Below, one piece after another: positions 5,331 through 41,132 of a DNA stretch of 64,000 nucleotides. The stretch is from Undibacterium sp. Jales W-56. Its GTDB lineage: Bacteria; Pseudomonadota; Gammaproteobacteria; Burkholderiales; Burkholderiaceae_D. The stretch is taken from positions 248,001 to 312,000 of the forward strand of contig NZ_JAJLQW010000004.1 in the NCBI RefSeq assembly GCF_025548535.1, in the 5' to 3' direction. Position 1 is the first letter of the stretch. Every line of letters starts with the position of its first letter. The notes below the pieces were generated by a model. The model saw only the letters and a list, made by a program, of their open reading frames with translations. It was not told where the DNA came from and did no database searches. Position numbers and translations under genes: made by a program.

Positions 5331-5939
5331 ATGAAAATTACCGTACTCTTCCCTACTCTTACCGAAGCCAGCCTGTTTCAACGTGATGGCGTTAACACGA
5401 TCATCTCTGGTGTTGGACTGACGGCCACCGCCATCGCCACCCTGAAAGCGATACAGGCTGAGCAGGCGGATGTCCTGATCCTCGCCGGGATCGCAGGCGT
5501 CTATCCGCATTCGCCGCTCAAACTGTTTGATGTGGTGCTCGTAGAGAGCGAGTTGGAAGGCGACCTGGGATTTTTCACGGTGAACGGATTTGTCCACATG
5601 GCACACCTGCCTATCGCCATGGAATTCGAACGACGTCATACCTTGCACTGTCCGTCGATCACGACCAAAACCGCGTTCAAACGCGCGCGCAGTGTGTCCT
5701 TGAACGCCGCACTTGCGCCATTTATCGATACGGGCAATATCGATATTGAAAACATGGAAGGCGCTGCTTTTTTCCATGTTTGCCTGCAAGAAAATCAACG
5801 CTTTCTGGAATTACGGGCCATCTCCAATGTGGCCAGAATCGGCGACGATGATTGGGATATGCAGGCATCCGTCGAAGCGCTGACTGACGGCCTGCACCGG
5901 CTCATCGATGAGCTACAGCAAGCTAATGAACCTCACTAA
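5331..5939 (+). CDS. futalosine hydrolase-like nucleoside phosphorylase-family protein
   Basis: Protein of 202 residues in the purine/uridine phosphorylase superfamily, close in layout to futalosine hydrolase (MqnB), which removes the base from futalosine in the alternative menaquinone pathway. Visible are the Gly-rich ISGVGLTATAIATLKAI (25-41), LILAGIAGVYP (49-59), the substrate-site motif IENMEGAAFF (139-148) and RAISNVARIGDDDW. Length fits the family. No other mqn gene is in the window, and organisms of this kind normally use ubiquinone, so the substrate may be another nucleoside such as methylthioadenosine. The start ATG 5331 has only a weak ribosome site. It follows the nrdJ terminator and is probably transcribed alone. 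Confidence 0.65.
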   Translation: MKITVLFPTLTEASLFQRDGVNTIISGVGLTATAIATLKAIQAEQADVLILAGIAGVYPHSPLKLFDVVLVESELEGDLGFFTVNGFVHMAHLPIAMEFERRHTLHCPSITTKTAFKRARSVSLNAALAPFIDTGNIDIENMEGAAFFHVCLQENQRFLELRAISNVARIGDDDWDMQASVEALTDGLHRLIDELQQANEPH

Positions 5940-5954
5940 TGGACTGACACAAAA

Positions 5955-6103
5955 ACCAAAACCTCTCACTACAGCGACACGAAGACAGAAAGAAAAGGCA
6001 AGAGCAACTGGCTCGAAGAAGTGCGCGTATAAAAACGAAGCCGCAAGCCGGGTGCGCCGGTTGGCGCGAAATTGCCCGGAAAGCCGCATCCAGCCTGCGG
6101 GCG
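5955..6103 (+). repeat. dispersed intergenic repeat, copy A
   Basis: One of three related copies in the window. Order of parts: ACCTCTCAC leader (5961), an AGACAGAAAGAAAAG purine tract, a variable middle, an AAAACGA box, a left hairpin arm (6041-6057), a TTGGCGCGAAAT box (6061) and a right arm CCGCATCCAGCCTGCGG (6084-6100). In this copy the left arm has several mismatches. It lies between two convergent genes. Confidence 0.75.
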
Positions 6104-6175
6104 TGATGTACATGGCGGTAAGCAGCTTTCTGTTTTGCGTAAATCCCAGGGCCTGCCAACAATTAGATCGGAATA

Positions 6176-6199
6176 AAAAAGGAGCCGCAGCTCCTTTTT
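6176..6199. terminator. bidirectional terminator
   Basis: GGAGC-CGCA-GCTCC stem-loop with an A-run before and five T after, between the futalosine-hydrolase-like gene and the convergent parvulin gene. It can end transcripts from both sides. Confidence 0.7.
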
Positions 6200-6261
6200 G
6201 ACTTTGTCTATTGCCGCACATATCCTTACCTGCAGATATGTGCGACAAAACTCCAGCACGA

Positions 6262-7173
6262 TTATTTTTTCGCTGGCTCAGCCGTCTTTGTTTCCGCTGA
6301 AACAGCGCTTGCGGATGCAGACGCAGGTGCTGGCGCTGGCGCGGCAGCTTTTACCATCTCGATTTTCGCTTTGGTATGAATGTCGTCTAACAATTTCTTC
6401 AAACTCTCTTGCTGCACCTGCTGCTTCAAGCCATCCTTGATCTGTGCCAGCGGCGGAATCACTTTGGCGCGGGAATCTTCCAGCAAAATGATGTGGTAAC
6501 CAAATTGCGATTTCACGGGCTCTTGGGAGAATTTACCTTTCTCCAATTTGGCTACGGCCTCGCCGAATTCCGGCACCATGCGCTTAGGATCGAACCAGCC
6601 TAAATCGCCGCCATTGGCTTTAGAGCCTGCATCCAGAGATTTTTGCTTGGCAATGGCCTCAAATGCGCCAGCATCCTTTTGGAGTTTGGCGATAATGTCT
6701 TTTGCGTCCGCTTCTTTTTCTACCAGGATGTGGCGCGCTTTGTATTCATTGCCGGCCAGCTTGGTTTTGAGTTTGTCGTATTCGGTATTGAGTACTTCGT
6801 CAGTGATCACATTATTTTTCAGGTAGTCCTGAATGAATGCATTCGCCAGGATCGATTGCTTGGTCAATTCGGTCTGCTCAAGAACTTCCTGGGATTTATC
6901 CAAGCCCTTTTTAACGGCTTCCTGCGCAATCAATAATTGCATCGCCAGGTGATCGACGATTTCTTTGCGTGCCTCAGGCGTATCCGGCTGACCTTGCGCT
7001 GCACGTTGTTTCACCATCAAATCCACGCGGCTCTCGCTGATTGCCGTACCGTTGACGGTGGCTGCGGCCGGACCTGTCGCAGCCACTTCGGTTTTATTAC
7101 ACGCGGAGAGTGCCAGCATAGAAACAGCGCTTGCCAACAAAATACGGTGATGCATACGAGATTTGATCGTCAT
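6262..7173 (-). CDS. parvulin-type peptidyl-prolyl isomerase lipoprotein
   Basis: Periplasmic PpiC/PrsA-like foldase of 303 residues. The N terminus is a lipoprotein signal ending in LSAC (lipobox). A SurA-N-like helical region follows, then a complete parvulin domain at about 165-255 with ARHILVEKE, NGGDLGWFDPKRMVPEFGEA and SQFGYHIILLED. The C-terminal 30 residues are Ala/Pro/Ser-rich. The start is placed at ATG 7173 because AAGGA lies about eight bases upstream and the signal peptide begins there; the frame is open a further 26 codons upstream. It stands alone, with a terminator at its 3' end. It probably helps fold envelope proteins; EpsD-type chaperones are the nearest alternative. Confidence 0.85.
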   Translation of the reverse strand: MTIKSRMHHRILLASAVSMLALSACNKTEVAATGPAAATVNGTAISESRVDLMVKQRAAQGQPDTPEARKEIVDHLAMQLLIAQEAVKKGLDKSQEVLEQTELTKQSILANAFIQDYLKNNVITDEVLNTEYDKLKTKLAGNEYKARHILVEKEADAKDIIAKLQKDAGAFEAIAKQKSLDAGSKANGGDLGWFDPKRMVPEFGEAVAKLEKGKFSQEPVKSQFGYHIILLEDSRAKVIPPLAQIKDGLKQQVQQESLKKLLDDIHTKAKIEMVKAAAPAPAPASASASAVSAETKTAEPAKK

Positions 7174-7391
7174 GTTTTCATTCCTTTTCAATGAGGTAGG
7201 CTTAGTTGTGCTGCAGGCGGCTAAATTCGGTAGCGATGCAGCAAGCCGCACATATTAGCAGGATTAAATCCCTTGCAATACTAATGCCGTACGCACCACC
7301 TCATTTTCCGGCAAATTGCAGCGCCAATTCAAATATCTATATTATTAGGGCTTACCCAATACAGAAAACTGCTTGCCACGATCTGCATTGA

Positions 7392-7536
7392 ACCCGCAGG
7401 CTGGATGCGGCTTTCCGAGCCATTTCGTGTCAACAGGTGCACCCAGCTTGCGGGTTCGTTTTAATATCATCATTCCATGGAGCTGTTTACTCTTGCGCTT
7501 CCTCTGAGTCTCCGTGTCTCTGTGGTGAGAGGTTTT
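7392..7536 (-). repeat. dispersed intergenic repeat, copy B
   Basis: Same element as copies A and C, here on the minus strand. It has the clearest leader (CCTCTCACCACAGAGACACG), then a GAGACTCAGAGGAAG tract, ATATTAAAACGAACCCGCAAGC, and the right arm at 7394-7410. It lies between the 5' end of the parvulin gene and the 3' end of tolC. Confidence 0.75.
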
Positions 7537-7562
7537 GATTTTTGCGTCAATCCTATATAAAC

Positions 7563-7590
7563 AAAAACCTGCTTTCGCAGGTTTTTTTTT
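7563..7590 (-). terminator. tolC terminator
   Basis: AAAAACCTGC-TTTC-GCAGGTTTTT stem-loop with T-runs on both strands, 21 bases past the tolC stop. Confidence 0.8.
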
Positions 7591-39501: not shown

Positions 39502-39574
39502 ATGGTGCAATAAGCAATTAGGGCAGACTGAATAATTTCCGGCTGAATTTTAGATTAATTACCAAGACGTGCGC

Positions 39575-39725
39575 AAAACCCCAGACCTCTCATCCCAGAG
39601 ATGCGGAGACGCAGAGAAAAAGCAAGAAGAAAGATTTCATCGGGTGTTGATATTAAAACGAAACCGCAAGCTGGATGCGGCTGTTGGCGCGAAATACCCT
39701 TGAAAGCCGCATCCAGCCTGCGGGT
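39575..39725 (+). repeat. dispersed intergenic repeat, copy C
   Basis: The most regular copy: ACCTCTCATCCCAGAG, GGAGACGCAGAGAAAAAGC, ATATTAAAACGAAACCGC, left arm 39664-39680, TTGGCGCGAAAT, right arm 39707-39723. The arms pair at 16 of 17 positions. It lies between the convergent fur and receiver genes and touches the receiver stop codon, so it may act as a terminator. Confidence 0.8.
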
Positions 39726-40105
39726 TACTTGTGAATTCTTACCGCGACGCCGGCAACCGTATCCAGTACACGTTGTGCGTTAAACGGTTTTACGATAAAG
39801 CCTGCGATCCCTGCCTTGACAGCCTCGCTGACCGTCTCCTGATCTTTATTGGCTGTGACCATCAATATTTTCACCTCCGGCAATACCTCTTTGATCCGCG
39901 GCAGAATTTCTAGGCCGCTGATTTTTGGCATCACGACATCGAGCAAAATAATGTTCGGTTTAAACTGGACCGCCAGCTCCAAGCCCGCGATGCCGTCAGC
40001 CGCTTCACCCACCACCTCATAATCTTCGCTCAAGATGAGGCGCAACACTTCACGCGTCGCTTCGTTGTCATCCACAATCAGGATGGAGATGTCTTTGCTA
40101 TCCAT
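39725..40105 (-). CDS. single-domain response regulator (CheY-like)
   Basis: Receiver domain with no output domain, 126 residues. The acidic pocket is in ILIVDDNEATREV, the phospho-acceptor Asp in NIILLDVVMPKISG and the switch Lys in IAGFIVKPFNAQRV. Start ATG 40105 (MDSKDISILIVDD); the frame extends upstream into hrcA but the domain begins here. It lies seven bases after the hrcA stop. The partner kinase is unknown; a role with the Pil-Chp system is possible but not supported by position. Confidence 0.88.
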   Translation of the reverse strand: MDSKDISILIVDDNEATREVLRLILSEDYEVVGEAADGIAGLELAVQFKPNIILLDVVMPKISGLEILPRIKEVLPEVKILMVTANKDQETVSEAVKAGIAGFIVKPFNAQRVLDTVAGVAVRIHK

Positions 40106-40112
40106 ACGTTTT

Positions 40113-41132
40113 TTACTGGCTGAGGGCATTGGAAAGCAATTTCGCCGTAATATCCACAATCGGAATGACGCGCTCATACGCCATGCGCGTCGGCCCTATA
40201 ACCCCCAGGGTGCCGACAATTTTGCCGTTGACGCCATACGGTGCAGTCACAATACTCATCTCATCCATCGGCACCAATTGCGATTCGCCGCCGATAAAGA
40301 TCTGCACCCCGGTTGCCTTGCTGGAGACATCCAATAGCTGCATCAAGCCGGTTTTCTGCTCGAACATATCGAACAATTTTCGCAAGGAAGTCATATTGTT
40401 CGACAAGTCCTGCACATTGAGTAAATTGCGCTCACCCGAAATGACCACTTCATCCGATTGATCCGACATCGCATCGCTGCCGGCCTCAACTGCCGCCTGC
40501 ATCAGGCGCGTCATGTCGTTTTGCAATTGGCGTAACTCGCTATTGATACGCAACCTGGCATCTTCAAAACTCAAGCCGCCAAAATTCTGATTCAGATAAT
40601 TCGCGGCTTGCACCAGCTGCGATGCGTTGTAATCGACATCGGTCAGCAGCAGGCGATTATGCACCTCGCCATTGGGCGCCACCACCACCAGCAAAATCCG
40701 CTTTTCAGACAGCCGCAAAAACTCTACCTGCTGAAAAATAGATTCATGCCGCGGCGTCATGACGACGCCGGCAAATTGCGACAGCGACGATAAAACCTGG
40801 GCCGCGTTAGAGATGATCTTTTGCGGGGAATTGGCGAACACATGCGCCTGCATCCGCGACTCCAGCGCGGTGCCGTCGATTTCCTGCACCGTCAGCAATT
40901 TATCGACAAACACACGGTAACCGCGCGGCGTAGGAATGCGCCCCGCCGACGTGTGCGGACTGGCGACAAAGCCCATCTCCTCCAGATCCGCCATCACATT
41001 GCGTATGGTTGCGGGCGATAGCTCCAGGCCGGAGATTTTAGACAAGGCACGTGAACCTACCGGCTGACCATCAGCAATATAGCGTTCTACCAGGGCTTTT
41101 AATAATGTTTGTGCGCGGATATCAAGTTGCAT
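40113..41132 (-). CDS. hrcA: heat-inducible transcription repressor HrcA
   Basis: Repressor of chaperone genes that binds CIRCE. 339 residues. N-terminal winged helix ([38 protein letters not shown]) and then the GAF-like regulatory part with [21 protein letters not shown] at the junction. Length is normal. No CIRCE element (TTAGCACTC-N9-GAGTGCTAA) was noticed in this window. In many relatives hrcA is divergent from nadK; here the ars genes lie in between. Confidence 0.95.

Follow-up and report, generated by a model that had tools for sequence, protein, structure and literature searches.

The repeat at positions 5955-6103 of the window (the whole stretch of 64,000 nucleotides of Undibacterium sp. 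Jales W-56 DNA analysed here) recurs twice more nearby, and this raises the question of what kind of sequence it is. The initial annotation had proposed a MITE- or REP-like element, possibly a terminator or a structured RNA. All three copies are present in the window with their parts in the order it gave, and the arm CCGCATCCAGCCTGCGG is identical across them; allowing up to three mismatches, this arm matched the window 5 times, whereas 100 shuffles averaged 0.43 matches and 0/100 reached 5. The limits originally drawn (5955-6103, 7392-7536 and 39575-39725) held for position but not for length, since terminal inverted repeats lie outside them. We set the outer limits by aligning 30 genome loci and window copy 1, with their flanks and in one orientation, and found that the repeat is a ~207-bp non-coding element bounded by terminal inverted repeats, (T)AGGACTTACGCAAAA...TTTTGCGTAAGTCCT(A). 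Both the hairpin and the ‘leader’ belong to the interior of this element, between its terminal inverted repeats.

Copy 1 is a full-length element of ~208 bp on the plus strand (5940..6147 by alignment; C15:253941-254146 by sequence model, 158 bits), with its left terminal inverted repeat, TGGACTGACACAAAA, at 5940..5954 and its right one, TTTTGCGTAAATCCC, at 6133..6147, both plus strand and located by sequence and alignment (consensus AGGACTTACGCAAAA and TTTTGCGTAAGTCCT, respectively). Its leader module, CTCTCAC followed by degenerate tandem 8-mers of the CACAGAGA/CACGGAGA type, occupies approximately 5961..6000 (plus strand), and its internal hairpin module occupies 6037..6103 (plus strand). 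Copy 2 is likewise full length and lies in the opposite orientation (7347..7554, minus strand; L020:1456-1663; C15:255348-255553, 170 bits), with the hairpin module at 7390..7456 (minus strand). Copy 3 (39566..39739, plus strand; C15:287566-287739, model positions 3-176) lacks the right end, with ~30 bases missing, and carries its hairpin module at 39660..39726 (plus strand).

Taking simple ORFs as gene calls, copy 1 is preceded by a gene for a phosphorylase-superfamily protein (PF01048; 5331..5939, plus strand), and between copies 1 and 2 lies a gene for a PpiC/SurA-like peptidyl-prolyl isomerase (PF00639; 6262..7251, minus strand), with an outer membrane efflux protein (PF02321; 7611..8933, minus strand) to the right of copy 2. 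Copy 3 is flanked by a Fur-family regulator on the left (PF01475; 39064..39501, plus strand) and a response regulator receiver protein on the right (PF00072; 39725..40177, minus strand). Two copies had been placed between convergent genes, as is the case for copies 1 and 3; copy 2 sits between two minus-strand ORFs. The description of the copies as strictly intergenic was nearly right, but the response-regulator ORF (39725-40177) runs into copy 3 with its final bases, at the 3′ end of the gene. At 39725-39739 the right end of copy 3 is missing where that ORF overlaps, and the end of the gene may therefore have been altered by the insertion of copy 3 or by a subsequent deletion. Matches in relatives to the genes flanking the window copies were ~76% identical or less.

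Copies in the rest of the genome were sought in the organism’s own assembly (G000, 4.19 Mb, 20 contigs). With copy 3 as the query, a first search listed at least 67 matches among the 40 of 142 candidates that were scored, the weaker of which were hairpin arms matched in reverse. A sequence model built from 29 copies (R1) gave at least 151 matches (150 of 1,834 candidates scored); some of these split a single copy into two pieces, and all copy counts should be read as minimum values. At least 87 distinct full-length copies, 170-230 bp long and with no transposase gene, were verified among 128 own-genome loci. The prediction of hundreds per genome was thus of the right order of magnitude, and the further copies that might have been absent turned out to be plentiful. 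The full-length copies have diverged considerably, with a mean pairwise identity of 0.76 and a highest value of 0.96 in 600 random pairs; the non-consensus rate in their 15-base ends was 0.11 across the 87 copies.

How these copies came to be inserted is recorded at their ends. Target duplications, which the initial annotation had suggested seeking, were found: 59 of the 87 full-length copies carried a 5-bp direct repeat in which at least 4 of the 5 bases matched, where shuffles gave 7.1 such copies (31 copies with 4/5 and 28 with 5/5; shuffles, 5.9 and 1.2). The other 28/87 matched at only 0-3 of the five bases, as expected for old copies; in the window, judged by eye, copy 1 shows no duplication at its ends and copy 2 only an out-of-register one. 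In a register test, the five bases starting one position outside each end matched in register, with background on both sides of them; the matching fraction was 0.72 for 46 own-genome end pairs (z 11.5) and again 0.72 for 37 end pairs in other genomes of the genus (z 9.5), the latter including a few alternative pairings of one site. This test led us to drop the TA duplication (IS630 type) that had been our initial guess. The insertion target approximates WTWAW, and the 30-base flanks are 64% A+T compared with 48% over all loci. Because a 5-bp duplication at the ends indicates insertion by DDE-type transposition, the repeat belongs to the non-autonomous DNA transposons known as MITEs. Repeats of the REP/BIME type, which a RAYT (Y1) transposase spreads, would equally be extragenic, multi-copy and hairpin-bearing. 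However, Y1 transposition makes neither target duplications nor terminal inverted repeats, both of which are present here (duplication in 59/87 copies), and the ends are common to DDE insertion sequences; we consequently give the REP-like reading, which the duplication contradicts, hardly any credence.

We then looked for autonomous elements sharing these ends. Scanning viral contigs with the end sequences revealed three separately inserted elements (L202, L204 and L236), each spanning 1,099 bp from AGG to CCT; their AGGACTTACGCA ends are perfect, and so are their 5-bp duplications (TAAAG, AACTC and GAATA), while 24 further viral-contig loci from the same scan did not have two good ends. From the chosen start, each of the three elements has an ORF of 324 aa, and those of L236 and L202 fit the NCBIfam family transpos_IS701_2 (E 1.6e-116 and 6.6e-115) and also match Pfam DDE_Tnp_1. 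Among plasmid genes near-identical to the viral-contig transposase, some are annotated as ISAba11 in Acinetobacter. More distant IS701-type elements on cyanobacterial plasmids, from Nostoc linckia (L361) and Planktothrix (L363), carry MITE-type ends, with one mismatch at one Nostoc end, and 5-bp repeats read by eye from the flanks (AAATT and ACAGT). A fragment from Nostoc ATCC 53789 (L364) had no such pair of ends. An element on a Polaromonas sp. H6N plasmid (L362) was also rejected as an insertion sequence with MITE-type ends: it is a distant element of IS701 type whose inverted ends, around GACCTTACGCA, are longer, related but different, and possibly a drifted form of the MITE/ISAba11-type end.

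Within the organism’s own family, a transposase search of 392 genomes found 8 with strong matches, 5 of them above the family cut-off, and 11 of the 15 loci were examined for end pairs. Two elements, both in genus g24 (L590 in G253 and L591 in G207), have transposases above the cut-off with open frames of ~350 aa, perfect 12-base ends at 1,109 and 1,108 bp, and duplications of 5 of 5. These were the only two of the 11 with perfect ends and a perfect duplication together: L593 has perfect ends and a duplication of 2 of 5, L595 has one end mismatch and 0 of 5, L597 has one poor end, and L592, L594, L596, L598, L599 and L602 have no end pair. When the MITE consensus was compared with nine insertion-sequence or remnant loci, eight shared with it no more than 12-17 end bases, apart from an extra, chance-like 12-base match in L595, and the remnant L332 did not match at all. 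The MITE-like reading was borne out by the inverted repeats at the termini, by the target duplication of 5 bp and by autonomous insertion sequences that match.

No ISAba11-type autonomous member was found in the organism’s own genome, where tblastn returned 0 and HMM search only one weak match, a fragment at C14:32924-33130 that lacks a pair of MITE-type ends and had also come up in the search for DDE_Tnp_1. Neither of the two DDE_Tnp_1 hits there qualified as the parent: the ends upstream of one (L031) belong to a MITE copy (C1:413650-413847) and not to the gene, and the other (L032) has no such end pair. An autonomous copy was also sought at 20 unpaired-looking ends (9 in the own genome, 11 in G060), and none was found; 12 ends had a partner 67-301 bp off, 4 had no partner, and 4 had distant partners only, with no duplication or poor ends. 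Across the genus, intact ISAba11-type transposases numbered 0/43 genomes by tblastn, run without a positive control, and 0/43 above the HMM cut-off. Weak transposase HMM matches occurred in 17/43 genus genomes, and two that lie beside ends were looked at closely: in G072 (L334) a transposase fragment immediately follows TAGGACTCACGCAAAAACAAAA, and in G069 (L332) a deleted, stop-ridden remnant sits between end-like sequences. Mover and passenger have thus not been seen together.

It could be argued from this absence of an intact ISAba11-type mover in the genus that the MITE is a passenger of a different IS family whose ends are alike by chance. That explanation is quite improbable, as 13-17 end bases and the duplication length are identical to those of ISAba11-clade elements in the same family, and ISAba11-type transposase fragments stand beside MITE-type ends within the genus. 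We favor instead, on the strength of ends, duplication length and nearby transposase fragments, a link to the ISAba11 clade: judged by sequence, the ~207-bp MITE was very probably moved in trans by a DDE transposase of this clade (IS701-like). Such a transposase, supplied in trans, would recognize the ends (T)AGGACTTACGCAAAA and insert the element at an AT-rich 5-bp target (~WTWAW), which would be duplicated, and the leader and hairpin would travel as cargo, as captured repeat modules. The mover itself appears to be a transposase that is now absent from this species, so that the copies, at a mean pairwise identity of 0.76, are presumably for the most part fossils.

Could the hairpin nonetheless be a functional structured RNA or a regulatory hairpin under selection, such as a riboregulator or an mRNA 3′ end stabiliser? 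Non-consensus rates across the 87 copies were lowest in the hairpin arms (0.08-0.09), followed by the loop and ends (0.11), the leader (0.12) and the linkers (0.28-0.29). Pairing was common, as 90.5% of the cells formed by 25 predicted pairs and 87 copies pair, compared with 32-40% when one side was slid by 1-3 columns, although the structure was itself taken from the consensus; one copy also folded far better than its own shuffles, whichever strand was taken (z -6.4 and -4.6). Column shuffles, however, yielded 90.3% paired cells (57/300 reached 90.5%), and compensatory double changes stood at the shuffled expectation (13 cells vs 11.2, with 101/300 shuffles reaching 13). An earlier set of 29 copies had double changes in 0/15 pairs. 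Conservation of base pairing, on which the initial annotation had staked its proposal, therefore holds in that most cells pair but not in the form of compensatory rescue. Private mutations showed no depletion within the hairpin, at 0.48-0.78 per site compared with 0.39-0.93 elsewhere, Rfam gave no match at gathering scores, and there was no clear orientation bias. Without a compensatory excess or a depletion of private mutations, a selected RNA is not supported; we judge it very unlikely, and the structured RNA of the initial annotation, having neither an Rfam gathering-score match nor an excess of covariation, is likewise not supported. We attribute the low variation of the hairpin to the source copies, and not to selection acting afterwards.

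A terminator role fared somewhat better. At least 5 T occurred in the 8 bases after the hairpin on the minus strand in 48/87 copies (a raw count with no shuffled control), and a pattern scan scored copy 3 as terminator-like on both strands (2 found vs 0.3 in shuffles), with a weak terminator-like pattern within the copy 2 hairpin at 7409-7421. These observations, and the placement of two of three window copies between convergent genes, would suit a terminator that transposition has spread and that is retained, or at any rate employed, as such, mainly on the minus strand, a reading compatible with a MITE origin. On the plus strand, however, only 9/87 copies have such a tail and the consensus lacks a T-run, and separate terminator-like hairpins already adjoin copies 1 and 2 (6176-6199 and 7563-7586). 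Gene context likewise offered little for it: the 87 copies divide into 46 between tandem genes, 19 convergent, 16 divergent, 4 in small ORFs and 2 unassigned, and within the tandem class the element is co-oriented with the genes 26 times and opposed to them 20 times, with no clear bias under crude longest-ORF calling. We consider a terminator kept or used as such unlikely; what survives of the suggestion is that the T-rich minus-strand tail in 48/87 copies makes incidental termination on that strand possible.

If the hairpin and leader are cargo, where else do they and the ends occur? The end pattern, at up to one mismatch, was found in 40/43 genus genomes, up to 246 times (119 + 127), against 0-2 per strand for a reversed-pattern control; two of the 40 (G081 and G099) were at the control level. 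We read 30 genus loci, of which 27 have an end pair, with lengths of 67-125 or 190-193 bp. These shorter Undibacterium elements share the ends of the MITE and, as a group, its 5-bp duplication, but by eye their insides differ and lack the leader and hairpin modules. The R1 model scored at best 187 bits in the own genome and 47 elsewhere. Some match was present in 33/43 genus genomes (56 candidates per genome scored), many of the matches listed covering the leader only (model positions ~5-85); G094 had at least 10 near-full-length matches (best E 8e-12) and G089 at least 1. In 60 family genomes searched, 4 matched, namely the own genome and three others whose matches were short and weak. One G094 cousin (L071) is flanked by the same gene pair as window copy 1 but runs in the opposite orientation, which suggests separate insertions into one tolerant spot in the two species (window 5331-7251).

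In relatives the leader arms are often palindromic and without MITE ends, and the leader is therefore a separate repeat module. At eight genus loci (L075-L082) we observed intergenic palindromic repeats with arms like CCTCTCA(A/C)CACAGAGACACGGAGACACAGAG, varied middles and no ISAba11-type ends. Nine own copies (L051-L057, L063 and L064) contain a second MITE-like insert with ends GGGAACTTCTAAAAACCC, 102-124 bp long in the seven measured, present in both orientations and always at the same internal spot, with identical 4-bp repeats (TCAA or TAAA) in seven of the nine by eye. The second insert thus has a fixed landing site within another MITE. At four own-genome loci (L585-L588) the hairpin module occurs without ISAba11-type ends and, by eye, adjoins pieces of this second MITE, as if it too had picked up the module.

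Beyond the genus, scanning GTDB for pairs of ends separated by 192-222 bp yielded at least 116 stretches with at least 117 elements. The hosts among those listed include many cyanobacteria, Poribacteria, Hymenobacter and large sulphur bacteria, as well as three Undibacterium assemblies and a few others. A perfect 5-bp duplication flanked 71 of the 117 elements, against 1.0 in shuffles (48/80 in the first 80 loci). The exact core arm had no match in a separate GTDB scan, which may not cover the own genome, and plasmid similarity searches with the MITE and two ~102-bp cousins gave chance-like hits only. A cyanobacterial record (L436) and a viral contig (L116, with no target duplication) combine MITE-type ends with CAGAGGCACAG- or GAACGAAGAGAACGAAG-type purine tracts; these might serve as repeats for transposase binding or might simply be there by chance.

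It is a plausible but slightly less than even prospect that ISAba11-type ends are a multi-phylum MITE chassis, the same 12-16 end bases enclosing varied interiors in Undibacterium, the cyanobacteria, Hymenobacter, Poribacteria and the large sulphur bacteria. In this species the interior would have been put together from intergenic repeats of other kinds, namely a CACAGAGA leader and a hairpin, with a second MITE joining later at a single fixed position. If this is true, with modular capture and copies outlasting the local transposase gene, one transposase clade would be a principal source of the intergenic repeats of several phyla. This modular make-up is the most interesting part of the Undibacterium MITE. 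More practically, an unexplained ‘leader plus hairpin’ repeat becomes an element of known chemistry with defined ends, and the signature of AGGACTTACGCA ends plus a 5-bp duplication can serve to annotate similar repeats across many genomes. It also carries a caution, in that a conserved-looking hairpin cannot be read as a functional RNA without a covariation test.

Literature searches found nothing on MITEs in Undibacterium or on hairpin-bearing intergenic MITEs of betaproteobacteria, nor on the end strings AGGACTTACGCA and CACAGAGACACGGAGA; for GCGTAAGTCCT they returned, by title, human and fungal genes only. The Undibacterium MITE adds a new member to a known class of elements and is not a new RNA. 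Correia elements (NEMIS) are high-copy intergenic MITEs in a betaproteobacterium, with ends and a target that differ from those described here. The closest likeness is to the ISAba11 clade (IS701-like; NF049921 transpos_IS701_2), whose members have the same (T)AGGACTTACGCA ends and 5-bp duplication as the MITE, as measured on L202, L204, L236, L361, L363, L590 and L591; these elements are ~1.1-1.3 kb with a transposase ORF, whereas the MITE is ~207 bp and non-coding. The family was described by Rieck et al., 2012, as cited in PMC7326120. A parallel is offered by MITEAba12 of Acinetobacter (PMC6382973), which is likewise tied to an insertion sequence by ends and target duplication only, with the co-resident ISAba12 proposed as its mover; unlike the MITE here, it has GGCTTTGTTGCA... 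ends, a 9-bp duplication and a length of 113 bp.
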